64,000 nucleotides of DNA from the NCBI GenBank assembly GCA_009779755.1, contig WRDO01000013.1:1-64000 (forward strand), in the 5' to 3' direction. The DNA is from Defluviitaleaceae bacterium (lineage in GTDB: Bacteria; Bacillota; Clostridia; Lachnospirales; WQUN01). Below the pieces are notes generated by a model. The model worked only from the letters and a program-made list of their open reading frames with translations. It did not search any database and was not told where the DNA came from. This document shows positions 21,561 through 50,534 of the stretch, in pieces; the first letter of the stretch is position 1; each line of letters starts with the position of its first letter. Made by a program: the position numbers and the translations under genes.

Positions 21561-21611
21561 TAAGTTAGAAGCAATAGAATGCGTTTATTTGCTTTGAAAG
21601 CAGGGATGGCT

Positions 21612-21899
21612 ATGGACATGAGGATTTCAGGCGCGTACGGTGTTTACAAGGCGCAGCCCGTACAAAAGACGTCCGCGAGCACATACGTGAAGGGCGCGGC
21701 CAAGACGGGTTCCGTCGACAGCGTTTCCTTCAGCGCGGTGGCGAATGAGCTTAACGTTGCGCGAAAGGCGTTGAGGGAGATACCTGACGTACGCGAGGCA
21801 CGCGTCGTCGAGCTTCGGGAGCAATTGAATTCGGGTACGTATCAAGTCAGCGCTTCCGATATCGCCGCGAGGATCTTCGGCGTAGCCTCGGATAAATAA
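21612..21899 (+). CDS. flgM: Anti-sigma-28 factor FlgM
   Basis: The protein is about 95 aa. The N-terminus MRISGAYGVYKAQPVQKT and the C-terminal sigma-binding helices (VDSVSFSAVANELNVARKAL, VVELREQLNSGTYQVSASDIAARI) match FlgM, which holds SigD inactive until the hook-basal body can export it. Several ATGs lie close together (21579, 21606, 21612, 21618); I choose 21612 because family members begin just before the MxI motif. It heads the late flagellar cluster and is followed by an intrinsic terminator-like hairpin. Confidence 0.88.
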   Translation: MDMRISGAYGVYKAQPVQKTSASTYVKGAAKTGSVDSVSFSAVANELNVARKALREIPDVREARVVELREQLNSGTYQVSASDIAARIFGVASDK

Positions 21900-22048: not shown

Positions 22049-22543
22049 ATGGCCGGGATGATAAACCAACTGATCGATATCTTGGGCGAACAAGCAAACC
22101 GTTGCGAGGAGCTTTTGGGCCTCGCGAAGGAAAAAAAGGATGTCATCGTCAAAAATGACGTGGAGGAGCTCCAAAAGATCACCGGCCTCGAGAATATGGT
22201 CATCAGCCAAAATAACCGGCTGGAAAAACAACGCATCGCGCTGGCCGCCGATATCGCCGAAGTATTGGGTAAGCGGGGACAGGTACTTGACATCGCCGCC
22301 CTGATCGAATGCATGGAGGGCCAACCCCAACAGCAACCCCTGCGCGAAGCGGGTAATCGCCTGCGCACCGTCATCAACGCGCTGAAGGAAGCCAATGACC
22401 TGAACAACACGCTGATACAAAACGCGATTGACTACGTGGAATATTCGCTCAACGTTATCCGTACTTCGGATAAGCTAACCGGGCCGGAATACCCGGACAA
22501 CATCAAAGGGGACGCATACGGCTTGTTCGACGCCAAAAATTAA
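22049..22543 (+). CDS. flgN: Flagellar export chaperone FlgN
   Basis: The 164-aa, mostly alpha-helical protein (MINQLIDILGEQANRCEELLGLAKEKKDVIVKND...) has the FlgN coiled-coil pattern and a C-terminal YVEYSLNVI segment. FlgN binds the C-termini of FlgK and FlgL in the cytoplasm and delivers them to the export gate. The start has AGGTAGG. It directly precedes two flgK and two flgL copies, so one chaperone may serve four clients. Confidence 0.88.
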   Translation: MAGMINQLIDILGEQANRCEELLGLAKEKKDVIVKNDVEELQKITGLENMVISQNNRLEKQRIALAADIAEVLGKRGQVLDIAALIECMEGQPQQQPLREAGNRLRTVINALKEANDLNNTLIQNAIDYVEYSLNVIRTSDKLTGPEYPDNIKGDAYGLFDAKN

Positions 22544-22582: not shown

Positions 22583-24709
22583 ATGGGTTTTTCGGGTTTG
22601 AGTATCGCGACCAGCGGCTTGCGTAACGCACACGCCAACTTGGGTGTAACCGGCCACAATATGGCCAACGCCGAGATACGGGGCTTTTCGCGCCAGCGTA
22701 TCGTGCAGAAGGAATCTTTTGTGTGGGACCGCGGCGTAGCCCTCAACGGCGACCGTATGATTGTGGGTATGGGCGTGGACCGCAACGCCGTGCAACAGCT
22801 CCGTAACGAATTTTTGGACTTTACATACCGTACCCAAGTGGGGCGATTGGGTTTCTATTCCACCCTAGCTGCCGCCGGGCGCGAAATCGAAAATATGCTG
22901 GGCGAACTGCACGGCGCGTACAACTTCCAAGGCGTGGTCAACGAGATGTGGTTCGCCATACAAGAGCTTTCACGCCATCCCGACGGCTTCGCCACGCGGC
23001 AGCAGCTCCTTGCCACGGCGACCTCGTTTATAAATAAAGCCCGCGAAGTCTATTTGGGTTTGGTGGAGGAACAACATAACCTCAACCACCAAGTCATCCA
23101 AACCGTAAACGATATCAATACCCTCGTAGGCGAGGTAAACCGTTTAAACGATTTGATACGGCGCAGCGAAATGGCGGGCGACAACGCCAACGACTTCCGT
23201 GACCAGCGTAATCTGATCTTAGATCAATTGGCCGAGCTTATCCCCATCGACGTGCGCGTGGATTCCCAAGGCAATTATAATATCCTCACCCAAGGGCACG
23301 AATTATTAAACGGCGGCAACCAATCGCTGATCGGCTTACGTTTCGCCTCCGCCGAATTTAACTTCGTTATCCCCGTGCTGGGTACGGAAGGGCAAACCAT
23401 CGGCGCCGATACCCCACCCGACCAATTCATCAACTTTATGCATTTGCGCCCGATGGACAACGCCAACGGCAACGACTTCGGCAAGTTAAACGCTTTATTG
23501 TTGGCGCGCGGTATGGCCCCCGCGAATTATATGAGCAGTGAATGGCCGCCGCCGTTGGAACGCTTGGCGGCGATGGGGGAAACGTTGGCCAACGCATGGG
23601 CCGATGTGGATGGGAGCTTAGTGGACGCGGTAACGTTGGCGGCCGCTTTCCCACCCGGCGACTTCCTGCGGGACGCCTTCGAAGCCGCACAAGCAAACCC
23701 GGACGACCCCGCCTTATGGATCGCTTTTAACGACGCCGTTGCGGCATTTATGGAAGACCCCGCAAATAACGACCCGCCAACTCCGCAATATATCGCGTTA
23801 CAAAACGCCGTTTCCGATATCGGTCCCCTGTGGGCACGCATCCAATCCGCCCAAAGCCGTTACCAACTTTTTGAAGCCCACCTCGCCGAAAACCTTGAAG
23901 CCGAAGAATTTAATTACCAACTCCATCTTTGGAGCGTCCAATACGGTATGATCCCCCGCGTACAGCAAAACCTGGACGGCATCTCCAACGCCATGGTCAC
24001 CATGCTCAACGATGCGCTGACCGGACGGCTGCGTGAAGTAAACCCGACGTACAACCCCGAAGACCCGTCCAACCCGCTCCCCGGCCATCCCAACTACGAA
24101 CTGTTGGGCGGCGGGCGCTACCGTTTTGTGTTCGCTTGCACCGACGATACCCGCCCCGGTTATCCGCACAATTATGCGCAACCGTGGAACCTGAACAGCG
24201 AGCAGGGCGGCGTACCGTTGTTTATCCGCCGTTACGCCTACGGCGACATACCGGTAAACCCGGCCGATATCAATTCCCTTTATTCGATTGAAAACCTGAT
24301 GATCAATCCCGCTTTGTTGCAACCGGGCGGGCATAACCTGCTCGCTTTGTCCCTGGACCGTGACACGGTAAACGATACGCGTGTGTTGGAAGCCTTACAA
24401 AACGCATGGCGCGCCAACGCGGGGCCCTACACCGTGGAAATCGGCGGCAGCCAACACCGCGTGCAAGACGCGTACATCCGCTTGGTGGGGCAGATCGCCA
24501 CCGATGTCAGCGAGGCGATGGGTTACGTGGAGGCGCAACGCGTCCAAGTGATCCAAGCGGACAACCAACGGATGGCGATCAAGGGCGTTTCCATGGACGA
24601 GGAGCTGGCCGCGATGCTGCGCTTCCAATACGCGTTCCAAGCGGCGTCGAGGGTCATCAACGTAATCGACTCCATGATAGACGTGATCATACGTATCGGC
24701 CGCGCTTAA
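22583..24709 (+). CDS. flgK: Flagellar hook-associated protein 1 (FlgK), copy 1
   Basis: The 708-aa protein has the flagellar rod/hook N-terminal motif (SGLSIATSGLRNAHANLGVT, then GHNMANAEIRGFSRQ) and the matching C-terminal helix (GVSMDEELAAMLRFQYAFQA ... VINVIDSMIDVII) that pack together in the filament axis. FlgK is the first junction protein between hook and filament. It is about 200 residues longer than Bacillus FlgK; the extra sequence is in the surface-exposed middle (roughly 280-480). GGAGGGGG precedes the ATG. A second, diverged flgK follows after 31 bases. Confidence 0.92.
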   Translation: MGFSGLSIATSGLRNAHANLGVTGHNMANAEIRGFSRQRIVQKESFVWDRGVALNGDRMIVGMGVDRNAVQQLRNEFLDFTYRTQVGRLGFYSTLAAAGREIENMLGELHGAYNFQGVVNEMWFAIQELSRHPDGFATRQQLLATATSFINKAREVYLGLVEEQHNLNHQVIQTVNDINTLVGEVNRLNDLIRRSEMAGDNANDFRDQRNLILDQLAELIPIDVRVDSQGNYNILTQGHELLNGGNQSLIGLRFASAEFNFVIPVLGTEGQTIGADTPPDQFINFMHLRPMDNANGNDFGKLNALLLARGMAPANYMSSEWPPPLERLAAMGETLANAWADVDGSLVDAVTLAAAFPPGDFLRDAFEAAQANPDDPALWIAFNDAVAAFMEDPANNDPPTPQYIALQNAVSDIGPLWARIQSAQSRYQLFEAHLAENLEAEEFNYQLHLWSVQYGMIPRVQQNLDGISNAMVTMLNDALTGRLREVNPTYNPEDPSNPLPGHPNYELLGGGRYRFVFACTDDTRPGYPHNYAQPWNLNSEQGGVPLFIRRYAYGDIPVNPADINSLYSIENLMINPALLQPGGHNLLALSLDRDTVNDTRVLEALQNAWRANAGPYTVEIGGSQHRVQDAYIRLVGQIATDVSEAMGYVEAQRVQVIQADNQRMAIKGVSMDEELAAMLRFQYAFQAASRVINVIDSMIDVIIRIGRA

Positions 24710-24740
24710 AATTATTATATTCCGTTAGGGGGTTCGCGAT

Positions 24741-26645
24741 ATGCGCTCCGCATTTTTTCCGTTTCATGTAGCCGTGTCGGGGTTGCACGCAGCCCGCGCC
24801 AATATGAACGTCGTCGGTCACAACATCGCCAACGCCGAGATTCCCGGCTTCTCGCGCCAGCAAACCGTACAGCAAGCGGCGCTCCCGTTGCATTTGCGCG
24901 ACGGACGCGGTATGTACGGTACGGGCGCGAATACGACCGCCATAATCCAAAACCGCAATAAATTCTTGGATATGAAGTTTTGGCACCAACGCGCCATCCT
25001 GGGCGAACACACCACAAAGACAACCCACCTTTCTTTCGTCGAAACCGTATTCAACAACCTGCCGGGTGCGGGCGTATTAAGCTCCTTCGAGGATTTCTTC
25101 GGGCGGATGCGTGACCTACACGGCCACGCGCCCGCCGCCACCTTCCGCACCAACGTGATCACGGGGGCGGATGCCCTCGCCGAAATGGTGCGCCACAACG
25201 CACTGGCCTTGCAACGCCAGCAAATCGACATCAACCGCGAACTGGCGGACGTGGTGACGATCATCAACAGCTTGGGTTCGCAGATCGCATCCATCAACCG
25301 CCAAATCGCCGACTTCGAACGCGACGGCTCAAACGCAAACGACCTGCGTGACCGCAGGAACCTATTGATCGACGAGCTTTCGCAATACGTAAACGTGGAC
25401 GTGATCGAACGCGATTTCTCCACTTCCGAATCCCCCAACGACCGCCGAACGACGGTACGCATCAACGGTTACGACTTCGTGCGGCACGACCAATTCACCG
25501 GGCTCGAGCTGGTACCGCGCCAATCGGGTCAACGCCGCAACGAAATGGACGTGGACGGCTTGTACGACTTGGCTTTTTCGGGCGGGCAGGGTTCCTTTGA
25601 TATTTACAACCATGCCTTGCGGGGGGTATTGCGTGGTTTGGTCGATTTACGGGACGGCAACAATTCGGTCACTACCATGCCGACCGTGGCGATATGGCCC
25701 CCGGGCTTCCATACGAACGCGCCGGATTTATGGACGGGGCAATGGCCCGCGCCGACATCCACCGACTTCCCACCCACTGTGTTCGCCGCCACCGACGCCG
25801 AAAGGGCCGAAGCCATCGCGCGCTTTAACCCAAATGACCCCGCGACGTGGCCTGTCAGTACCCAGCGCGAGCAATTCGGCGGCGTAACGAGCAATTACAA
25901 GGGTATCCCCTTTTATATGAACCAACTCAACCACTTGGTACGGACCTTCGCGCGCGGCATCAACGAGGGTTTGGACGCGCAGTTCCGCCAAATCCCCGGC
26001 GCGACGGGGCACATCAACGGCTTTGACATCAACGGCGAAAACCGTTCGGCTTTGTTGTTCACCTACACGCGGGAAAGCGACGCGCTAACGGCGACCGCGG
26101 GCGTGGGCGGCAACACCAACCGACTGCCGCTGTACCGTACGCCCGCGGGCAACCTCGTGACCGATAATGCAAGCGGGCTCAACACCCGCGTCGAGGATGC
26201 GCTGGGTGTCCCCGTATACGTGATGGATCTGAGCGGCATGAACGCCCTTAACTTCACCGTCAACCCCGAACTGGTACACAACAATTCCCTACTGGCCACA
26301 TCAAACCATCCCGACCAAGGGGAATCGAACAATCAAGTCATCCAAGGCTTCAGCTTGGTGGGGACGTTCCCGCACCTCTTCCGCGAAGGGCGGCTGGAGG
26401 ATTTTATCATCGCGATCAGCGACCACTTGGCCATCGATACCAACCAAGCGCTCAACTTCGCCTTGAGCTTCGATGAAATCACCATGCAAACGCACAACCA
26501 ACGATTGTCCGTCAAGGGCGTGGACATCAACGAGGAAATGATGGACCTCGTACGTTTTAACGCGATGTTCCAAGCGGCGTCGAAACTGATCAACGTAATC
26601 GATACGGTTTACGACACCCTAATCAACCGATTGGGTTCGTTCTAG
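24741..26645 (+). CDS. flgK: Flagellar hook-associated protein 1 (FlgK), copy 2
   Basis: The 634-aa paralog repeats the FlgK signatures: SGLHAARANMNVVGHNIANA and EIPGFSRQQTVQ at the N-terminus, and KGVDINEEMMDLVRFNAMFQ ... LINVIDTVYDTLINRLG at the C-terminus. The conserved ends align with copy 1 but the middle differs in length and sequence, so this is an old duplication. It has its own AGGGGG ribosome site and runs into flgL copy 1 after 9 bases. Two FlgK types could form alternative or mixed hook-filament junctions, or more than one filament type. Confidence 0.92.
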   Translation: MRSAFFPFHVAVSGLHAARANMNVVGHNIANAEIPGFSRQQTVQQAALPLHLRDGRGMYGTGANTTAIIQNRNKFLDMKFWHQRAILGEHTTKTTHLSFVETVFNNLPGAGVLSSFEDFFGRMRDLHGHAPAATFRTNVITGADALAEMVRHNALALQRQQIDINRELADVVTIINSLGSQIASINRQIADFERDGSNANDLRDRRNLLIDELSQYVNVDVIERDFSTSESPNDRRTTVRINGYDFVRHDQFTGLELVPRQSGQRRNEMDVDGLYDLAFSGGQGSFDIYNHALRGVLRGLVDLRDGNNSVTTMPTVAIWPPGFHTNAPDLWTGQWPAPTSTDFPPTVFAATDAERAEAIARFNPNDPATWPVSTQREQFGGVTSNYKGIPFYMNQLNHLVRTFARGINEGLDAQFRQIPGATGHINGFDINGENRSALLFTYTRESDALTATAGVGGNTNRLPLYRTPAGNLVTDNASGLNTRVEDALGVPVYVMDLSGMNALNFTVNPELVHNNSLLATSNHPDQGESNNQVIQGFSLVGTFPHLFREGRLEDFIIAISDHLAIDTNQALNFALSFDEITMQTHNQRLSVKGVDINEEMMDLVRFNAMFQAASKLINVIDTVYDTLINRLGSF

Positions 26646-26654
26646 GAGGTATTT

Positions 26655-28130
26655 ATGCGCGTAACCAACTCAATGATCTACGGGAACTCGCTTAATAATA
26701 TTTGGCGCAACGTAAAGCACATCAATGGCCTTGCGCAGCAAATCGAGACGACGAAACGTATACAGCGCCCTTCCGACGACCCGATATTGGCGGCACGGGC
26801 GATGCGCTACCGCACGATTCTGTCGGAGACGGAGCAGTTCCTGTCCAACGCAAACAGCGGTATGGCATGGATGGATGCAAGTGAAGCGGCTTTTATGAAC
26901 CTGTTAAACGAAAACGACGCGGCCTTGCAGGAAATCAACCGCCGTTTGGTCGCCGCGTCGAGCGGCACGCACGAATTGGCCGACCGCTTGGCCATGGTGA
27001 AGGAAATGCGTGAATTCTTCGATCAGATTTCGTTGGAAATGAACCAAACGTACATGGGGCGTTTCGTTTTCTCCGGTTTCTACACCAACCAGCCGCCGAT
27101 ATTAAATACGGACATGACCGACCGCAGCTTCGTGATTACCCAACAAATCGGCAGGAACCAAATCCAACAGGTGCGTTCCTTCCAAAATATGCCGCCCGAC
27201 GGCCGTCTGCCCGAAGTGTATACCTTTAACGTCATCAACCTGCCGTATCGGGGCGTGGATTCGGATGCGTTGGAAATCCCGGGCTTTACCGTCATACGGC
27301 GAAGCATCCACGACGAGGATGCCTACACGCCGACGGCGACGGACGAATCGACGGGACTCCCCGTCATCCACTTCATCCCCGAAACGGGCGAGCTGATCAT
27401 GCACGCGGATACCGCCGAAGGTTTCCCGCGGAGCCTTGACATCCAATACCGCGTGGACAACCCCAAAAAAGGCGAACCGAACCCCATCGTATACTTCCAT
27501 ACAAGGGAAGTGGGATGGAACAACACCCACGATAACGGCGACGGTACCTTTGGCGCGTGGCTCCCGTTGGAACCCGTTTCCACCCATACGTACAATACCG
27601 ACGGTCACCAAATCCGTATAGAAATGGCCCCGTCGAACCATATAACGATCAATTCATTGGCTAAGGAAATTTTTACGCCCGCGATGTACGCGGATTTGCT
27701 TGCGCTTTTCGAGTTTGTGGAGAACCTGCCGGTCAGCGACCCGCGCGCCGTGGAGGCTTATTTTAAGGACTTGGGTTATGTCGGGCAAAACCTGACCGAC
27801 GAAGTAAACAAATTTATGTCCGACGAGGCTGCCCGTGTGCAGGACGTACTGCACACCCGTTTTTATCATATGCTGGGCGTATTTTCGCGGCATAAGGACA
27901 TCGTGCAGCGGGAGCATACGAGTTTGGGATCACGCATGAACCGGATCGAAATGATCTCCGTACGCTTGGAGGAAGAGGAAATCAACTACACGGCGTTGCT
28001 TTCCGCCAACGAGGACACGCAATTGCAGGAAGCCATCATGCGCTTAAACGCGGGTGAAGCGGCCTTTAACGCCGCACTGCGGGCGAACGCGATGATCGTG
28101 CAGTTATCGCTGGTAAACTTTTTGAGGTAG
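26655..28130 (+). CDS. flgL: Flagellar hook-associated protein 3 (FlgL), copy 1
   Basis: The 491-aa protein begins MRVTNSMIYGNSLNNIWRNV and ends with the flagellin-like helix LNAGEAAFNAALRANAMIVQ ... LVNFLR, the FlgL layout. MNQTYMGRFVFSGFYTNQPP is the conserved beta-hairpin region. FlgL is the second junction protein on which flagellin is built. It is about 190 residues longer than Bacillus FlgL because of an insert at roughly 190-330 whose text (DAYTPTATDESTGLPVIHFI, PETGELIMHAD) recurs in copy 2. An AGGAGG site precedes the ATG. Confidence 0.92.
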   Translation: MRVTNSMIYGNSLNNIWRNVKHINGLAQQIETTKRIQRPSDDPILAARAMRYRTILSETEQFLSNANSGMAWMDASEAAFMNLLNENDAALQEINRRLVAASSGTHELADRLAMVKEMREFFDQISLEMNQTYMGRFVFSGFYTNQPPILNTDMTDRSFVITQQIGRNQIQQVRSFQNMPPDGRLPEVYTFNVINLPYRGVDSDALEIPGFTVIRRSIHDEDAYTPTATDESTGLPVIHFIPETGELIMHADTAEGFPRSLDIQYRVDNPKKGEPNPIVYFHTREVGWNNTHDNGDGTFGAWLPLEPVSTHTYNTDGHQIRIEMAPSNHITINSLAKEIFTPAMYADLLALFEFVENLPVSDPRAVEAYFKDLGYVGQNLTDEVNKFMSDEAARVQDVLHTRFYHMLGVFSRHKDIVQREHTSLGSRMNRIEMISVRLEEEEINYTALLSANEDTQLQEAIMRLNAGEAAFNAALRANAMIVQLSLVNFLR

Positions 28131-28140
28131 GTGAACGGTC

Positions 28141-30060
28141 ATGACAAGATTAACGACATCAATGATGAACAATACGACGCTGATGCACATCAACCGCAAT
28201 ATGCGTAATTTAGACACGATTATCCGCCAGTTGGAAACGACCAAGAAGGTGAGCCGCCCGTCGGACAATCCGCTGGTCGCCAGCCGCGCGCTTAAGTTCC
28301 GCTCAAGCGTAACGGAGATCCAACAGTTCCGCCGTAACGTGGAGTTCGGCCAATCATGGATGGACGTGACCGAATCGTCCTTTATCAATATCATGGACAA
28401 CCAATTACAGGAAATCCGCCAACTGCTGGTGGCGGGCGCGAACGGTACGTACAACATCGACAACAAGACGACGATGATCGCGCAGATACGCGAGCTGACG
28501 GATCATATCGCCACGTTGGAAATGAACCAAACCTACGCGGGGCGTTACGTGTTTTCGGGTTTCCGTACCGACGAGCCGCCCGTGTTTAACGCGCAGAACA
28601 ACAGGCGTTTCGTCATTACCCAGCATTTTAACCTGTCGGACGTGGACAGGACTTCTTCCTTCCAACGATTGGGGCCGGATGCCGCCACGAGTTTACCCGT
28701 AGCGCACAAGGTCAACGTGGTGCGCCTTGCGTACCGCAACCCCGATACCGTACCCGTGGTGCCGGGCTTCCATGTCGTGCCGAAGAGTATCAACGACGCG
28801 GACGCGTACCTGCCCCCCGCGACGGACGAAGCGACGGGCCTGCCCGTACTTCACTTCATCCCCGAAACGGGCGAATTGGCGATGCACGATGATATCGCCG
28901 CCGTATTCCCACGGGAAGGGATCGCCGTCACGTTCGAAAAGGCGGGATTTTCGCGCGGGGAGTTAAACCCTGCCGTGTACTTCACCTCCCGCGAAATCGT
29001 CAACGAAACGCCCGAAAGGCCCGACGCCGACCGCGTATACCAAATCACGCAATATTTTTCACGTATGGCGGGTACGGCGGTGACCGTCGGGGCCAACGAT
29101 TACTTCGAATTCGAATTGGCGTATGACGCGTCCTTCCTAAACCCGAACGACCCCGAGGCGTTGCGCCCCGTATTACCTCCCGGCGCGGTTATCGAACCCC
29201 CCGCCGCGGCGGGCGACCCGTATACCGTACGCATCCCTGCGGCCTTCTTTGACCATAACAGAAACGTATCGGTTTCATACAACGTAGTCATCGACCATGT
29301 GCCCGCCGACCTTACCGGGCTCGACCCCAACGACCCCGCAGACGCCGATGACATTGCCGCGGCGATCGCCGCCGCAAACGCCGCCACGCTGGCGCTAACC
29401 GCCGACATCAAAACCGACCTGCGCGTGCAGGGTGTTATGCTTATGCGCGCGTCCGAACCGGGCGTCATCCCCCTCGTACCGATACCCATCGACCAAGCCG
29501 AACGCAACCGTTCCTTTGACATGCGCGACCAACGCATGACCGTCGAAGCCGCTTCGCATACGCACGTACCCATCAACGCGCTCGCCAAGGACGTATTTAC
29601 TGCGGAAATGTTCTCCGATTTGCGGCGGTTCATCGAATTCGCCGAGGGATTGGTTATTTCCGACGAAACGGAATTAAAGCGGCGCCTCGCCGCGCCCCCG
29701 CACAACCATACCGACCCGGAATTAAGCGACATCGCCTCGCGGCAGCTTATCGACGAGCGTGCGATCGCCAACGATGCGCTTTTTACCCACTTCAACAACA
29801 TGCTTTTCCTCATCGACCGCCACGCCGACCAAGTCACCCGTGAGCACACCCAACTGGGCGCGCGGATGCAACGCTTGCAAATGCTAAGCAATCGCTTGGA
29901 ACAGGACGAAGTAAGTTATGAACGCCTGACGAGTGACAATGAAGATACCGACATGTACCGCGCCGTTATGCTGCGCATGAACGCGGAGGCGGCGTTCCAA
30001 GCCTCGCTCCGCGCGAACTCGGGCGTCATACAGATGACGCTGGCGAACTTCATTGGATAA
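28141..30060 (+). CDS. flgL: Flagellar hook-associated protein 3 (FlgL), copy 2, with extra insert
   Basis: The 639-aa paralog starts MTRLTTSMMNNTTLMHINRN and ends LRANSGVIQMTLANFIG. It carries the same central insert as copy 1 (DAYLPPATDEATGLPVLHFI, PETGELAMHDD) plus about 150 further residues (roughly 300-445) including an Ala/Asp-rich stretch AADADDIAAAIAAANAATLA-like in composition. It follows copy 1 by 10 bases. At more than twice the usual FlgL length, most of the added mass would be on the outer face of the junction. Confidence 0.92.
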   Translation: MTRLTTSMMNNTTLMHINRNMRNLDTIIRQLETTKKVSRPSDNPLVASRALKFRSSVTEIQQFRRNVEFGQSWMDVTESSFINIMDNQLQEIRQLLVAGANGTYNIDNKTTMIAQIRELTDHIATLEMNQTYAGRYVFSGFRTDEPPVFNAQNNRRFVITQHFNLSDVDRTSSFQRLGPDAATSLPVAHKVNVVRLAYRNPDTVPVVPGFHVVPKSINDADAYLPPATDEATGLPVLHFIPETGELAMHDDIAAVFPREGIAVTFEKAGFSRGELNPAVYFTSREIVNETPERPDADRVYQITQYFSRMAGTAVTVGANDYFEFELAYDASFLNPNDPEALRPVLPPGAVIEPPAAAGDPYTVRIPAAFFDHNRNVSVSYNVVIDHVPADLTGLDPNDPADADDIAAAIAAANAATLALTADIKTDLRVQGVMLMRASEPGVIPLVPIPIDQAERNRSFDMRDQRMTVEAASHTHVPINALAKDVFTAEMFSDLRRFIEFAEGLVISDETELKRRLAAPPHNHTDPELSDIASRQLIDERAIANDALFTHFNNMLFLIDRHADQVTREHTQLGARMQRLQMLSNRLEQDEVSYERLTSDNEDTDMYRAVMLRMNAEAAFQASLRANSGVIQMTLANFIG

Positions 30061-30111: not shown

Positions 30112-30573
30112 ATGCAAGTAGTGGAGACTAAGCATTTCGGTAAGTTGGAGTATGACCCCGCGGAAGCGCTTACCTTCCCTTCGGGTCTGCCGGGCTACCC
30201 CGAGGATAAGCGTTTCCTGCTGTTGGATATGGAGGAAACGAACAACACCTTCTTTTGGCTGCAGAGCCTTGACGACGGTGACGTATGCTTCCCCATGATG
30301 GATGTGTACAAGGCAATCCCCGATTACGACCCGTGCGTGGACCCCGAAGAATTAAACGACTTGGGTCCTATCAAGGGCGCGACGTTGGAAATTTACAATA
30401 TCACCGTCATCCCCGAGGAAGTGGCCCAAACCCGCGTAAACCTGCGTGCGCCCGTCATCATCAACCGTGCGGCGCACATCGGTAAGCAGGTAATTTGCGC
30501 CAACGAGGATTATTCCATCCGCTACTACGTGATGGAAGACCTAAAGCGTATCAACACGCAAGAGGTCGCATAA
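30112..30573 (+). CDS. fliW: Flagellar assembly factor FliW
   Basis: The 153-aa protein ([20 protein letters not shown] ... [20 protein letters not shown]) is FliW. In Bacillus FliW binds CsrA and flagellin alternately: free flagellin releases CsrA, which then blocks flagellin translation. Here it precedes csrA with a one-base overlap, the conserved pairing. GAAGGA lies before the ATG. No flagellin gene follows in this window; the csrA gene instead meets a restriction-modification module. Confidence 0.95.
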
Positions 30574-30794
30574 TGCTCGCCCTTACACGAAAGAAATCGG
30601 AATCCATCATGATCGGCGACCAAGTGGAAGTGGTCGTGCTCGGCGTGAGCGGGGAGCAGGTGCGCTTAGGCATCATCGCACCCAAGCAGGTAACCGTACA
30701 CCGCAAGGAAGTGTATGAACAAATACGCGACGAAAATAAAGAAGCCACCCACAGCGTGCAAGCGGCTTCGTTACGGGATTTCATCAAGAGCTAG
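30573..30794 (+). CDS. csrA: Carbon storage / translational regulator CsrA
   Basis: The 73-aa protein begins [20 protein letters not shown] and contains [20 protein letters not shown], the RNA-binding beta-sheet of CsrA. It binds GGA motifs in mRNA leaders, typically at the flagellin ribosome site. The ATG lies in the fliW TAA (TAATG), so I discard a longer upstream reading. Its 3' end converges on the methyltransferase gene with 15 bases between. Confidence 0.95.
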
Positions 30795-39244: not shown

Positions 39245-42200
39245 TTATTTGCGGTATTTCTTCTTCATGAGTTTCATCGCGGTACCCAACAGCACCATGG
39301 ATAACCCCGCACCGAATAATATATGGTTTCCGGGGGTTTCACCGGTCGTCGGCATCGCGAGGTTGGGGATGGAAGCGGGTGGCTCCCATCCCCCCAGCGG
39401 TACATCCCAATCCTCGAAATACCATTCATCTTCGTCGTCCCAGCACCAATTTCCTAACGGGACACCCATATCGTCAAATTCCATAAAATAGATTTCGTCG
39501 CCGTCTGTCATGGGCACCAGAATATTGCCCGGCACCGTTGGGACGGGCGGGACATACGGATTTGAACCGCCGGGTGTATCCGGATCGGGTTGGGTCCCCG
39601 TAAAGTCAAAATGGGGGTAGCTCTCAGGTGTAAAGCCGTCCGGGAATATGATGATATAAGGCGGCGGCGTGGGGGTCGGCAGAGGCTCGGGTGAAGGTGA
39701 GGGCTCCGGCTCGGGTGAAGGCTCGGGTGAAGGCGGGTCTTCCGGTTCCGGCTCGGGCGTCGGGGTTGGTGATGGTTCCGGAGAGGGTGAAGGTGAAGGT
39801 GAAGGTGTCGGCGGGTCTTCGGGATCCGGAGTTGGTGACGGCTCGGGTGAAGGTGAAGGCGTCGGCGGGTCTTCGGGTTCCGGCGTCGGTGAGGGTTCCG
39901 GTGAAGGTTCCGGTGAAGGCTCCGGGTCTTCTTCGGTTATCGGTATTATGGGTATGGGGGTAGGTCTCGGCCTCGGCCTGGGCAAAGGTCTGGGGGTCGG
40001 TTGCGGTGTGGGGGTCGGCGCGGGGGGAGGATTATAACGGTTGGTGAATACGATCCCGTCATTCGGATGATGAATAAAAGCAGCCATCAATCTGCGGAAT
40101 GAAGGCATGAAGAAAAATCCGTCAAAATCGACCAGCGGAACCTCAACTTCATTAAAGATTTCAAAATCGCCGTTTTCATCATCGTCATCATCATTTTGGT
40201 TATCGATGTCATCTTCGTCGGTATCTTCGTCTTCATCATCTTCGGCGTCGGCATCGTTATCAGCACCGTCTTCATCACCTTCGGCGTTGACATCGTTATC
40301 GGCATCGTTGTCGGCATCTTCGTCTTCATTACCTACGGCGTCTTCGGCGTCTTCATCTTCGTCATCATCATCATCGGGGGTTGCCTGAGGAAGCACCGGA
40401 GGCATTATCGGGAAGTCGTCCTCTTCGATAAAGACATTGACGGACAATTCATATATGGTGCTGTCGTAGGTAATGTTCGCATCCCCCGTGGCTATTTCAA
40501 TGACCCGGTAGTTATGGGTGCCGACCCGGTCCTCGGAATAATAGAGGGTGAAGCTGAAGCTGCCGTTCGCGTCATTGGAGGTTGTTGCGAGCTGCCTGCC
40601 TTGGGCATCCAGCAAGTGGAAGAGGAATTCCCCTTCGCTTAAATCCCTGCCTTCAAGCACCTTGGTACCGTTGATAACGATGGACGTATCCTCCAGATCG
40701 CAGGGGGTATAGGTGTTGACAAACCTGATCCCGTCCGTGCCGTAATCGATTACGGTTAAAGGAGCCAGCACGTCGTCGGCCCTTGACAGTTCATCGATAC
40801 GGTACGTAAGGTTGCCGTTTTCTTCCGTTACTTCCACCGTTATGAAATACTTGACCGTATCGTAAATGAATTCGGGATGGTTGATCCGATTCTCTTCTAT
40901 CCTGAATCGGTATGTCCCGGGTTCGGTGAAGGTAATGGGGGCAAAGGTAAAGTCACCCGTACGGTTGGTTTGGCCGGCGGTCACGGGATTGGCTGTTTCC
41001 ATATCCGTGACGTTGAAGGTAAACATCGGGAGCGTTCCCGGGGCGTCAACCCCGTACTCGGCAGCGACGGTTTTGTTTGCGACCAGAATTAATTGGATGG
41101 GGTCAAAGACCGGCGGCGGCGGCGGGGTATATTGATTATTAAAAATCATGGGCCACTCGATGCCGTAGTCGCTGTCGTAGTTGGTGGAGGTCCGCTCCAG
41201 TGTGAGTACAAGCTCTCCGTTGATTTCTTTTTCCACTTCATCGATTTGAATGATGACCCATTTATCGTCTTCGTCATAGGTCATGCCTTCAATCCGTTGG
41301 TCCGCCGCCGGCGGCATTTCGCGGATGATGAAGTAATGAAGCCCCGCTTCGTTGATGAGGATGGGCCCGTCAAAGACGAGATTACCCGCCCCGTTGCTGT
41401 AACCCATGATTTCCGGTTCGGGGTGGAGCTCGTTGGTTTCTTCGTTTAAGCGGTATACGGCGAAGTCGAATACCCAGCTTGGGTCATAATCCGCAAGGCT
41501 GTTGGGGGCTACCCCGTTGACCTTCTTAAGCCCGGTCAGCTTAACCTCAATGCTGTCGTAGCTGCGGGGGGCCCTGTCGGAGGTATTAAAGAATTTCATC
41601 TTCGGGCCAATATCCAATTGAGCCGTTCCGTCTCTGCCGAAAACATAATCCGTTTCGTCCGTTCCGTCCGGCCCTTCCCCTGCATAGGTAGTGGAAACCC
41701 ATGACAGGGAGCCGTCCCCGTTGCGTTTGACTTCGATTTCGATGATATGGGTGATATTGTCAAATTCCACGGTGTAATGCGCGGGATAACGGCCGCCCGG
41801 GTTTTCCGTTACTGTAAATCGATGGGTTCCGGCGGCGGTTATTTCGATGGGGTCAAAGAAGATAACGCCCCATTGGTCATTGCTGCCGGTTGATACGATC
41901 CTTGAATCCTCGTCCCTGACGGTGAAGTCAAACACCCAGTACGGACCGGGAACTTCACCGTTCACCATTTTTATCCCGTAAATGGGTATAAAGAGGGGAT
42001 CGGGTATTTGGGTGAAGGTATTGGTTATGGTGATGCTGCCGTGCATGTTATCCGCGGCAATGATTTCCACGTCGGGGCTGTAGAAGGCAGTCCACCCTGC
42101 CGGCCCTTGCTCAATGACACTGTAGATATATCCGGGTTCCAAACCCGTAAACGTAACGTTCCCGTTATTAACAACGTCGATGAAGAGGAATTGCCCCGTC

Positions 42201-45200
42201 GCTTCCCAGTTATCCCAATAATCGTCGCGCGTCCGATCGGTAAGCGCAAGTTGATCGGGTCTGATACGGACCAAATCGACACGGATGTTCCCGCTTGCGG
42301 GTACGTCGGCGTCCACCCATTCCTTATACACGTCGATGCTGCCTAATGCGGTATAACGGTTGGTAATCGTAATAGCTCCGGTGATGGGCCCGTCGCCGGG
42401 AATTGCGGTCAACACATCGCCGTCCGTCGGCGTCCAATCCGTCAGATTCGTTTTTTCGATGACGGAGTAGGAACGTCCCGGTTCCAGGTCATTAAAGACA
42501 ACGCTCCAATCGTGGGGGCCCAGCACTTCGGTGATACCCGAGGGGATACCGTCGATAACCAGTTCCACCACGATCTGCTCATAAGGTGTCGGCGCGCCTT
42601 CCCATACCTTGGTGACTTCAATGGCATCCGGGGCATACGTGTTCAGGAATTTCAGCATTTCCGGGTTATATACCCCGTTTATCTCCGTGGTTGTCATCAC
42701 GCCGTTGACGGACCTGTATATATGGGTGATGACCGCGTGGGTCGTTGGCTCGTGGGTGACGCGTACCCTCAGCCATACCGGGTTTTGTTCAATCACCCAA
42801 GAAGCTCCGGGGTCGCGTTCCGTTATCCTGAAGAAGAAGTATTGGTCGTGTTCCTCCAAAAGCAGCCAGGTAATCGCTTCAAAGGCGAATACCTTACCGT
42901 CGGAAGTACCCGTGGTGGTCGCGGTCGAGGTAATTCCGTCCGCTACCGCGGTATCGTTAATCGTCCCGATCGTTTGCCCGCCGGGTATGCCGACCACTTC
43001 CACCAAATCAAAGGTGAAGGTGGTGCTGACGGGATTGCCGCGCAGGATTTCAAGCTCTTTTACCCCTTCGATAGCCAAGGAGGTCTTGCCTTTTTCGATA
43101 TTATCGAAGGCGTTTGAGAAGCGGCGGAATTCGGTATTCGCCGCCAAGGGAGCATCCGCTTCGGCTTTCCATTCGTCCCCGTCCCACCAGTATTGGCTGA
43201 ATTGCCCGGTTATCGGGTCGGACGTCAGCTTTACGAACAATACGGCGCGGTCGTGGGTCCAGCCGTTCCAATGGGGCCCGGAGGTTTCGTTGGGATTTTC
43301 CGTCAGACGGAAGTAATAGGTCCCCCGTTCCATGTTGGGCAGGTTGTAACTGACTTGGGACGTGGTGGCCGTACGTGCGTTTTGGATACGCGCTTCTCCT
43401 GCGACCAGCACCGAATTGTCCGCGGGCATGGCGCGCATGTAAATGGGATTATCGGTTAGGTCGCCCGTATCCGATACGGGGTTAAGTTCCCGCAGGGTAA
43501 AGGCAAAGCTCCTGCTCGGCGGGGGTTCGGACAGCCCTGTGGTCGGGGAAGTCAGCACCGGATAGAGCTTATAGAAGCTGATGGTCGCGGAGCCAAGGAA
43601 GTAGGTGTTGATAAAGGCACCGTCATCGGGGGTCATGGTAGTGGCATCCGCCAAGGGTTGGCCGTTACGGTAAACCTTGCTTAAGTCAACGGATTGCCAC
43701 TCGTGGGGAGCGATAACCAAGTTGTTATAACCGTGGGCCAGTTCGCCTCCCGTGGTTACGGTGATCTTTAATACCCGATAGGCATCGAGTATCCAACCGC
43801 CCGCCGTACTGCCCGCGGGCATCCTTTCTTCCAGCAGGAAGTAATATTCACCCGGTTCGGAGAAGGTAAGGGAGAAGTCGTGGCTCCCGTTGCGGCCCAT
43901 ATCCGTAATCTTGGTTTCCGTTCCGTTTACGGTAAAGGTATCGTCGTCGTTTTTGACGAGCGCGTGGCGGAAGAAAGCGAAGTTAATGGCGGGGGGAGCG
44001 CTCCCAACGACAGTTTTGGTGATGTTGACGGGGTCGGAGGTTTTCGGGAGGAAGATGTTAATGAAGTTATCCTCCGACGGAATGTCGGTGTACAGATCGG
44101 TCGTGGTGTTTAAGCCGATTCCGTTGATGAAGATATCCTCCAAGGCCGCCGAAATATACGATTGACTGATTTTGGTCAGCATACCGTTGGCGCCGTAGTC
44201 GATTTCCGCTTTCAGCAAGCGGTATCTGTCATACACCCAATCGTTGCCGACGGTGGTACTCGTTTCTTCTATTAAATAGTAGTAAGTCCCCGGGGCGGTG
44301 TAGGTGATATTAATATTGCCCGTAACGGGGTTGTTTCCGGCGGAAGCGGTAGGCTTTAAGGGGTTTGCCTGCGCCCAAGTACCGATGCCGTTATATTGTT
44401 CCGTAACTTCATTATATTCTAATTCGATGTATCTGAAGGTGTAGGTCGTTTCGAATTGGGCGGCGGTGAGGGTGCCTCTGCTCCGTACTTCCTTACCGTA
44501 GACAAGGTCAATGCCCGCGCCGTAGTACACATTAACGAAGGTAGCGTCACCTTCCACGGTTGGGGGCGTATCGGGGAAGAAGGCGCTGAGGTTGGCGGGC
44601 AACCATTCGACAACGGCGCGAAGTATATGGGTGGTTGGGTCGTTATTAATCGCTATCCGCAGCACCCGGTATCTGTCGTATCTCCAGCCCGCGGGTGGGG
44701 TACCCAATTCCTCGATTAAATAATAGTGGGTACCGACCCCTTGGAATTCCATAGCAAAGGAAGCGGAACCTTTGTCGGTAATCAGGTTAACCGCAAGGTC
44801 AATGGGTAGGATTGTGCCCGGCGTCGCGGCGGTGATTACGCCGTCCGTTCTGACGATGTGTGACAGTTCCCTTACCGCGAAGTTGTAGGTGCCGAAGCCG
44901 GACGCAATGCCCCGTACTTCCTTGCTTACGGGTACGGTTACGATAATGCGGCTGTAGCGGTTGATGAAGACGTTATTATCGGCGGAAAAAGAGGAAGGGC
45001 TGCCCGCCGCGTACCATGCATGGTATGCGGCAAAGTTCACCACCGTACCCCCGTGGTTGAGGGAGGGGATGGCGTACACGGGCGCGGAAGCGACTAAGCT
45101 GTCGGTAGTTTCATCGAAGGTTACTTCAACCTTGGCGATTCTGAAACGGTCATATTCCCAGCCCGGCGGGATGCCCGTGATCGGTACTTCCTCTTCGATT

Positions 45201-48200
45201 AAGAAATAATACGAGCCGGGTTGGTAGAAGGTGACGTTGAAGCTGTGGTTTTCCCTGCCGCTTTCCCCTACGGCGTTGGGGGACAGGGAGGCACTCGAAT
45301 TCAACACCGCCGTTGGGCTTACGGTAAAGGCACCCGGGTCACCGTCGATGGGAAACACGTTAAAGCGGTAGGAACGTACGGTATGGGATGCCGCTCCGGC
45401 CCCGGCGATTTCCTTATAATAAGTAAACGTGGCCGTAACGCTGTCAAAGCGGTTGACGAATACGTTGTTGTCGGGGGCAAAGACAAGGCCGTCGGCTGCG
45501 AATGTGATGCCGCTAAGGATAACATTCCCCGCCGCGTCCGCCTTCGGAGCCGCGTAGGCAACGGAGGCGTTTAATTCTTGAAGACCGTAGGAGTTGGAGG
45601 CGTTTTTGTTTTGGACGATTTCCCCGTCCTCGGTCACGGTGATTTTGGCAATCCTGAAGCGGTCATAAGTCCAACCGTCCGCCGGTGGTTCGGGCACGGT
45701 TTCTTCAATGAGGAAGAAGTGCTCGCCCGGCTCAAAGAAGGTGAAGTTGATTAACGCGCTCGGCGTCCGCTGACCCGCTATTTTTTGGATGATTTGGGTG
45801 GCGTTGGTGTTTTCGATGGGGGTACCTTGGCGGGTAAAGCTCCATACCCCGTTATCTTCCGTCGCGTCCAGGGCGTAGACGTTAAACGCGAAATTTCCGG
45901 AAAGATTGTTGTTGGGGGCGATTTCCTTAAAGAATTCGATTTGGGTGCTGACCCTGCGGTAGGCGTTTTCGTATTCGTTGCTTGCGGGGAGGTGCCCGCC
46001 GCGGAAGCGGTCGTAGTACGCGATGTCCGCGGGCAGCAACATGGAGCTGACATCGCTTATGGGGACGGATATCCATGAAACGGTTTGCGTCCCGCCGCTT
46101 ACGACGACCTGCATCACACGGAAGCGGTCATACGTCCAGCCGTTGGCTTCCTGTCCGGTTGCCGACAATTTTTCCTCCACCAGGAAATAATACGTGCCGT
46201 CCGCCGTCGGCACCCCGGAGAGGGGTACTCCGATCCAGCGCCTCGGCACCTCGTCGCTGGGCATCATGTTGCCGATGTCGCGGAGGGTGTCGGCTACGGG
46301 AGCAAAGGCCGCGCCCGGTTCGGGTCTGGCGATTTGCTGCATTTGGAAGTAATAACGGGTGCTGTAGTTGATTTCGTGGCTTTGGGTGCCGAACACATGC
46401 TTGTAAAGCACGGGGCCGTAGCCCGGGCCACCGACAAGGGAGCGGTTAACGAAGGTTCCCGTAGGCGGGGTCCATCCGGCGGGACGGGTCCCTTCGGCCC
46501 TGTAGAGTTCCAATATATTATCAAAAGGAGGGTCCAGCCCCCCCGGTGCTGCCGACAGCCCGCCGATCTCCGCCAGGTTAACGGATATAAAAGCAACGGG
46601 GTTGCCGGGCTGTTCCGGGTCGTCGGGGTCCGTCAGGGGATGGGTCATCAGTTTACCCACACCGTAAGGGAAGCCGCCGCCGTGCTGTATAACGTCGATA
46701 TGGAGCACACGGAAGCGGTCGTAATGCCATGGCTGGTCATCGGGCAGGGGGTTGGTTTCCCACAACAGGAAATAATAATCCCCGGGTTCGTAGAAGGTCA
46801 GCTCATGCCTTGCGTCAGGCACCGCGTGCATGACTTCGTCATCACCCCACGTATCGATGGAGGCAAGGTCAAACCACGCGCCCGCTCCGGTAAAGGTACC
46901 GTCTTCGTTTTTTAATAAACGGTGCCCCATGAAGTTCCACGTATGGGCCGCGGAGGAACCCAGTACCTGTTTGCTGTAATTCAAAACGACGGTGATGCTG
47001 TCGTAGAAGTTGACGAAGGTATCGTTATCCGGGGTTTTACCGTCGGGATACAGGTCATTAAACCTCGGGTCCTCCTGCGCCAAGGGAATGTCCGCCAAGT
47101 CAACGGATATCCATTCATGCTCGGCGGGTTCAACCCCGTCGGGGGTGGGGGTAATCATCAATACGCGGTAGCGGTCATAAGTCCAACCGCCGGGAGGTGT
47201 GCCTGCGGGCAGCCTTTCACGCACGAGGTAAAAATAAGGTTCATCGGATTGGGCGATGCCGAAACGCAGGGGGGTAAACCCGCTGAGGCTCCCGTCCCCG
47301 TTAACCTCCACGGTGATGGAAAAACTTTCGGTATGGATATCGCTCCATACGTCGTCCCCGCGGTATGCCGTCCATGAAGTGCCGTCTTGTCGGATACGGC
47401 GGAGGTCAAAGTCGAAGGTGCGCCCGACGGACGGTAAATCCGCAGGTTCCACCCCCAAAACGGTTTTGTTGACAATCACGGCGTAGGAAACGTTGTCGTT
47501 GGTGTTGACGAAGTTACCTGCCTTATCCGCTTCGGTTGAGACGGCGAAGCCATGGGCAACCAATCCGGTCGTTATGAGCGGCTGTAAGTCATAGTCAATC
47601 CATTCCGCCGTCGCTTTCAAGTAATCAATGATACCGCCGCTGTCGCTCAAATTCGGCGCGACGGTAACCCGCAGTACCCGATAACGGTCATAAACCCAAC
47701 CATCGGGGATGGGAGCGGGTACTAGTTCCTCCACCAAATAATAAAATACCCCGGCGGTTGTGCCGATCGGCAAGGAGAAGGACTGCTGACCGAAGATAGT
47801 CCCGTGTTCGGGGTCCGTAGCTACCGTAATGGGGTTAATGGGGACGATAGCGCCTATCTGTGCGCCGGTTTGGTGGTCGAATTGACGGTATTGGAATTCG
47901 AACGTGGCTCCCGGGGAGGCACCCTCACCGATTACTTTTTTGGTATATTCGACGTTGACGGAGGGGATGTTGATATAGGTGTTGGCAAAGGTGGAATTGC
48001 CGGGGATGATATTATCGGGATATAAACCGCCCAAATTTATTCCCGCGACAAGGTTGTTGCCGGTTAGGGTATGCGCGGTCCAGGTAATTTCGTATTTGAG
48101 CGCGTATTGCATAACCCCGGAGGCGTTGGCCGTGACGGGGCGGTTGGAATCTTCGCTGACGACGATTTCAAGTATTCTGTAACGGTCAAAGCTCCATCCG

Positions 48201-50347: not shown

Positions 50348-50534
50348 AAAAAACACCTCCGTTACCTTAACGATTGACATCATGTCTACGGTTATATAGA
50401 AAATAAACAAAAATATCGCTGGTTTTAAACGGATCGGTTATGAGGGGGGTACCACGCCCCTTTTTGTTGAATTTGCCTCTTTTTTAGGTATTTATGTACT
50501 GTACACAAGGCATAAAAAACACCTTCTCACCAAT

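Follow-up and report, generated by a model that had tools for sequence, protein, structure and literature searches.

Tandem pairs of diverged flgK and flgL genes in the single flagellar system of a Defluviitaleaceae bacterium, and a possible hook-filament junction built from both

The window analysed here, a 64,000-nucleotide stretch of a Defluviitaleaceae bacterium of the class Clostridia (assembly GCA_009779755.1, contig WRDO01000013.1), whose numbering is used for the coordinates, carries at 22583-30060 two genes for each of the hook-filament junction proteins FlgK and FlgL. Hook, cap and export gate are each encoded once in the genome. The most likely interpretation, to which a probability of roughly 0.55 was assigned, is that one flagellum has a junction made of two specialised FlgKs and two FlgLs, which would most likely form stacked rings. 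The four genes are:

22583..24709, forward strand: flgK1, K1-type FlgK of 708 amino acids (TIGR02492, 231.9 bits; in the K1 clade)
24741..26645, forward strand: flgK2, K2-type FlgK of 634 amino acids (TIGR02492, 240.2 bits; in the K2 clade)
26655..28130, forward strand: flgL1, FlgL of 491 amino acids (TIGR02550, 170.3 bits; in the L1 clade)
28141..30060, forward strand: flgL2, FlgL of 639 amino acids (TIGR02550, 175.0 bits; in the L2 clade)

All four are complete open reading frames without internal stops, separated by 31, 9, and 10 bp, and an AGGAGG motif lies upstream of flgL1. Their products exceed the curated NCBIfam cut-offs (170.75 bits for the FlgK family TIGR02492 and 127.2 bits for the FlgL family TIGR02550), which confirms the two full-length copies of each gene and their order as given in the original prediction, made from the sequence letters. 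Both FlgKs have the helical domain FlgK_D1 (PF22638) and the rod-type C-terminal region (PF06429) over cut-off, and both FlgLs grouped with other FlgLs in the tree, apart from flagellin-like rows. Pairwise alignment also bore out the predicted contrast between conserved ends and diverged middles. K1 and K2 are 34% identical over the first ~225 and 30% over the last ~150 amino acids, L1 and L2 are 45% identical over the N-terminal ~290 and 39% over the C-terminal ~200, and the middles are dissimilar in both pairs. AlphaFold2 models of K1 and K2, based on alignments of 5 and 8 rows, had a mean predicted local distance difference test score of 41.4 and 33.8, respectively, and were too poor to use.

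The phylogeny of the copies, proposed along with the original prediction as a check, separated K1 from K2 completely. Trees were quick calculations with support from the Shimodaira-Hasegawa-like approximate likelihood ratio test (SH-aLRT) and no bootstrap. In a tree of 135 FlgKs, thinned to one row per genus and two in the bacterium's own family, all 60 first genes of a pair lay opposite all 60 second genes (support of the split 77); four split or truncated pairs (G172, G233, G237, and G217) were excluded from this tree and from the column counts below. A 77-row tree with 12 FlgKs from outside the class recovered 26 K1 sequences as one clade (SH-aLRT 98) and 26 K2 sequences as another (96), with the products of flgK1 and flgK2 of the window in the respective clades and host groupings much alike within both. 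Because K1 and K2 fall wholly on opposite sides of the tree, the data fit a single, old duplication of flgK at an early stage of the class, with the gene order apparently fixed since. Profiles built from the tree rows likewise typed 83/83 first genes as K1 and 83/83 second genes as K2, and the pairs not used for building the profiles were K1-then-K2 in 23 of 23 cases. In the 77-row tree the stem branches of K1 were longer than those of K2, and most single-copy FlgKs of the class joined the K2 side, though weakly supported there, while that of G516, a long branch, fell among the outside FlgKs; the outgroup did not form one clade and two rows were misplaced, so that the root and the attachment of the single FlgKs are unsure. 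W81, a mark of K2, is also present in two single FlgKs of family f47, where K1 may have been lost. Compared with the same-genus genome G109, the ratio of nonsynonymous to synonymous substitution rates (dN/dS) was ~0.16 for K1, ~0.11 for K2, and ~0.11 for L2, values that show purifying selection; L1 was compared with G027 alone, at saturated dS.

An FlgK domain was found in 144 of 391 genomes of the class, with two copies in 71, one in 71, and four in 2. Loci were inspected for 98 genomes (101 loci, picked from match lists and not a random sample), and 83 of the loci contained a same-strand flgK pair: 28/32 in the own family, 43/43 in the other families of the order except f17, 0/6 in f17, and 12/20 in other orders of the class. 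The four own-family loci without a pair are halves of two genomes split across contigs. The usual order was flgM-flgN-flgK1-flgK2-flgL-fliW, and the gap between the two flgK genes was below 150 bp in 77 of the 83 pairs. Both frames were open in every pair (contig ends aside), and the pseudogenised flgK copy in relatives that the original prediction had named as counter-evidence was thus not seen. Within the own family, FlgK_D1 occurred in 31 of 38 genomes, of which 30 had exactly two copies and one, 71% complete, had a single copy. Among the seven genomes lacking the domain, G204 and G249 have flagellin and FliD matches and their FlgK may therefore be absent from the assemblies only; in G101, a genome of the same genus, flagellin and FliD are missing as well. 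Outside the class, a phylum search judged by eye found mostly one FlgK, with two or three in about two dozen genomes.

Because two copies are present in 71 of the 144 FlgK-bearing genomes and a pair in 83 of the 101 loci, the predicted rarity of the arrangement does not apply to flgK; it stands, as far as searched, for the flgL pair only. Two consecutive, non-identical flgK genes in the flgM-flgN locus are also in print for five of six Eubacterium and Roseburia genomes (Neville et al., 2013, PMC3720852), an arrangement like the one described here. The parts of that paper used here note the pair without phylogeny or mechanism, and flgL goes unnamed in its main text. The flgK pair itself is known as annotation; added here are its distribution over the class, its origin in one old duplication, the constancy of its order, the residues specific to each type, and the younger flgL pair. 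A literature search, largely by titles, yielded neither an account of how the flgK pair works nor a report of flgL genes paired in tandem within a single flagellar system.

The K2 of the window is 53-79% identical (best segment) to its nearest named relatives in seven loci, all from metagenome-assembled genomes of a kind that probably stems from termite guts. The FlgK2 proteins of genus g3 (L085-L094) have 940-996 amino acids vs. 634 in the window. Two genes of non-flagellar appearance (309 and 1120 amino acids; L085:8991-13279, reverse strand) separate flgK1 from flgK2 in G040, where the gap of 4356 bp is the widest of the 83 pairs. The 5.5-Mb single contig of G467 carries two flgK1-flgK2 pairs (L161 and L162) ~2.4 Mb apart.

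L1 and L2 formed two clades within the own family (SH-aLRT 98 each). Both genes lie between flgK2 and fliW in ten genomes of the genera g1, g3, and g6, the window included; in G233, the contig breaks off within the L2 that follows L1, leaving its start. The own genus has four flagellated genomes. Two of these, G000 and G027, carry both flgLs in the operon, and G027 has a third copy outside it. The operon flgL of the other two, G109 and G221, is L2 only, and both have L1-like genes elsewhere; loss of a copy in relatives, akin to the counter-evidence mentioned above, is thus partly observed for flgL1, as far as its place in the operon is concerned. In most other genera of the family, the operons that are covered far enough by their contig contain a single FlgL. 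The flgL duplication is younger than that of flgK and limited to a single clade of the own family.

In the own genome (91 contigs, completeness 97.7%), there is a single full copy of FlhA, the only other match being below the cut-off at 19 bits, one long, hook-type FlgE-like frame of 578 amino acids in addition to rod-type proteins, and one FliD over cut-off. Further matches in the FlgE search were frames of 262 and 275 amino acids, a 149-amino-acid frame, and both FlgKs. With FlhA, FlgE, and FliD each present once, the duplicated genes serve a single type of basal body and hook. On the same grounds a dual flagellar system was rejected, and with it the two kinds of filament that the original prediction had offered as one of two explanations; the other, a junction of more than one subunit type, is the likely one, since both copies of each gene are full-length and diverged and none is pseudogenised. 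More than one flgL per genome is also found in Shewanella piezotolerans WP3 (PMC5178100), but its copies are split over a polar and a lateral flagellar system, whereas one FlhA, FlgE, and FliD serve all copies here. Of the additional flagellin and fliD genes for which two filaments had suggested looking, only flagellins were found. The four flagellins, all of which have the N- and C-terminal flagellin domains, would allow filaments whose composition is mixed or changes:

L187:3934-8700, forward strand: flagellin of 1588 amino acids
L189:2386-7542, reverse strand: flagellin of 1718 amino acids
L188:215-3355, reverse strand: flagellin of 1046 amino acids
L190:4111-4929, reverse strand: flagellin of 272 amino acids

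The three flagellins exceeding 1000 amino acids fall in the size class of the described giant flagellins (PMC6248924); in the parts of that paper used here, FlgK is unnamed in the main text and the passages on FlgL concern telling it from flagellin. The 1588-amino-acid flagellin has a long middle rich in proline, glycine, and histidine with repeats such as NPPxGEPGHV. The FliD-type cap has 1623 amino acids (L191:3580-8451, reverse strand), with FliD_N and FliD_C at its ends and a long middle; in relatives of the family, the open frames at the strong FliD_N match have ~580-1300 amino acids, one of them cut at a contig end. A link between the numbers of FlgLs and flagellins was considered and found unsupported, as G225 has 12 Flagellin_N matches and one operon FlgL.

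Two positions distinguish the FlgK types. Position 81 is W in 72/81 K2 sequences and R in 78/81 K1 sequences, 12/12 outside FlgKs, and 11/13 single FlgKs of the class (G516 was excluded from the counts of single FlgKs). The D of an SxDEE motif near the C-terminus is kept in 80/81 K1, 13/13 class single, and 12/12 outside FlgKs; in K2 this position is N in 53 and D in 17 of 81 sequences. The flgK2 product of the window bears the K2 marks W81 and D595/N597. In Salmonella, the junction consists of 11 FlgKs on the hook and 11 FlgLs above them, under the filament, and D519, Q111, and Q118 of FlgK lie at the contact with FlgL (Einenkel et al., 2025, PMC12221982). The D of the motif aligns with D519, which is the only one of these three residues that separates K1 from K2. 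Of the columns that single FlgKs conserve, 7/8 of those in which K2 deviates but K1 does not are in the ends, and 5/6 of those in which K1 deviates but K2 does not are in the middle. Because the thresholds and the boundary separating ends from middle were set after inspection, this post hoc contrast was given no weight.

The junction proposed here is made of the same two protein families as that of Salmonella, which has one FlgK and one FlgL instead of two of each. According to the preferred interpretation, the early tandem duplication of flgK in the class would have left two proteins that were retained side by side and specialised, and the later duplication of flgL in one clade of the family would have had the same outcome. 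FlgN, encoded in the same operon, would help to export both FlgKs and both FlgLs, as expected from its known family, and all four would be built into each flagellum. Each paralog would form its own ring of about 11 subunits, in the sequence hook - FlgK - FlgK' - FlgL - FlgL' - filament. Joint use of both FlgKs in one flagellum is inferred, while stacking in place of mixing and the order of the rings are put forward with less confidence. At D519, K1 is more like an FlgL-facing FlgK, which hints at the order hook-K2-K1-FlgL, although one position cannot settle it.

Modelling of the Salmonella junction both favours and contradicts stacking: a double layer of FlgL was accommodated without clash, but FlgK on FlgK clashed and a multilayered FlgK appeared inherently unstable (PMC12221982). 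The latter is the strongest of several arguments that weigh against the proposed junction, and K2-specific changes could lift the clash. In addition, one FlgK suffices in 71 of the 144 genomes, K1 can apparently be lost, as judged from the two K2-like single FlgKs of family f47, the column counts revealed no clear difference between K1 and K2 at the positions of Q111 and Q118, and the D519 hint puts K1 beside FlgL, contrary to a simple colinearity with gene order.

The main rival, itself unlikely, is a heteromeric and not a taller junction, with K1 and K2 in one 11-subunit FlgK layer and L1 and L2 in one FlgL layer. Such mixing would avoid the FlgK-on-FlgK clash modelled for Salmonella (PMC12221982), and if that instability holds here it would therefore be likelier than stacking; the possession of FlgK_D1 by both types also agrees with it. 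However, an odd number of 11 sites is ill-suited to strict alternation, and a K2-only change at an FlgL-contact residue is more easily read as a sign of differing axial neighbours. Still less probable are alternative junctions, K1/L1 or K2/L2 per flagellum, perhaps matched to flagellins or growth states. The four flagellins of very different lengths and the varying number and place of FlgLs among relatives would suit this explanation, but the four genes form one run with minimal gaps, hook, cap, and export gate are single, and relatives with one FlgL keep both FlgKs. It is more doubtful again that one FlgK has left the junction for a new surface or medium function, for example as a secreted or adhesive protein. 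The middles do vary in length and sequence among relatives, with K2 reaching 996 amino acids in the family, and K1 is the longer-branched type, yet both proteins retain the conserved rod-like ends and FlgK_D1, both genes have flgN and flgL as their flanks at almost every locus, and both are absent along with the rest of flagellation in G101. Redundant duplicates or a dosage effect without division of labour would accord with the commonness of tandem duplicates and with both copies being FlgK by profile, but are very improbable given only 34% identity in the conserved N-terminal part, the old single origin, and the conserved type-specific residues.

Extending the stacked-ring interpretation beyond the window is more tentative: much of the Clostridia might have a three-ring junction (FlgK, FlgK', and FlgL) and the clade with doubled FlgL one of four rings, each ring being a separate specialised paralog. 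Stacked FlgK rings, if real, would contradict the modelling according to which FlgK layers cannot stack. The hook-filament junction is usually regarded as an invariable adaptor of two rings; should half of the sampled FlgK-bearing genomes of the class use two FlgK paralogs conserved from an early duplication onwards, this adaptor would be an evolvable assembly. The question can be addressed directly in gut bacteria that are in culture and carry the pair (Roseburia, Eubacterium), and surveys that count 'FlgK' as one protein per genome merge two orthologous groups.

The operon of the window has the order flgM-flgN-flgK1-flgK2-flgL1-flgL2-fliW. Downstream of fliW lies a gene known from its translation, which we take to be csrA-like from its sequence pattern and position. 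The neighbouring genes are:

21579..21899, forward strand: flgM, anti-sigma-28 factor of 106 amino acids (PF04316, 1.8e-16; TIGR03824 over cut-off)
22049..22543, forward strand: flgN, FlgK/FlgL export chaperone of 164 amino acids (PF05130, 1e-25)
30112..30573, forward strand: fliW, flagellar assembly factor of 153 amino acids (PF02623, 5.4e-34)
30573..30794, forward strand: presumed csrA-like gene, 73 amino acids

Farther downstream, at 39245-50410 on the reverse strand, the window contains an open frame of 3721 amino acids with a TTG start and three matches to FctA/Spy0128-like isopeptide domains, which probably encodes a giant surface protein.

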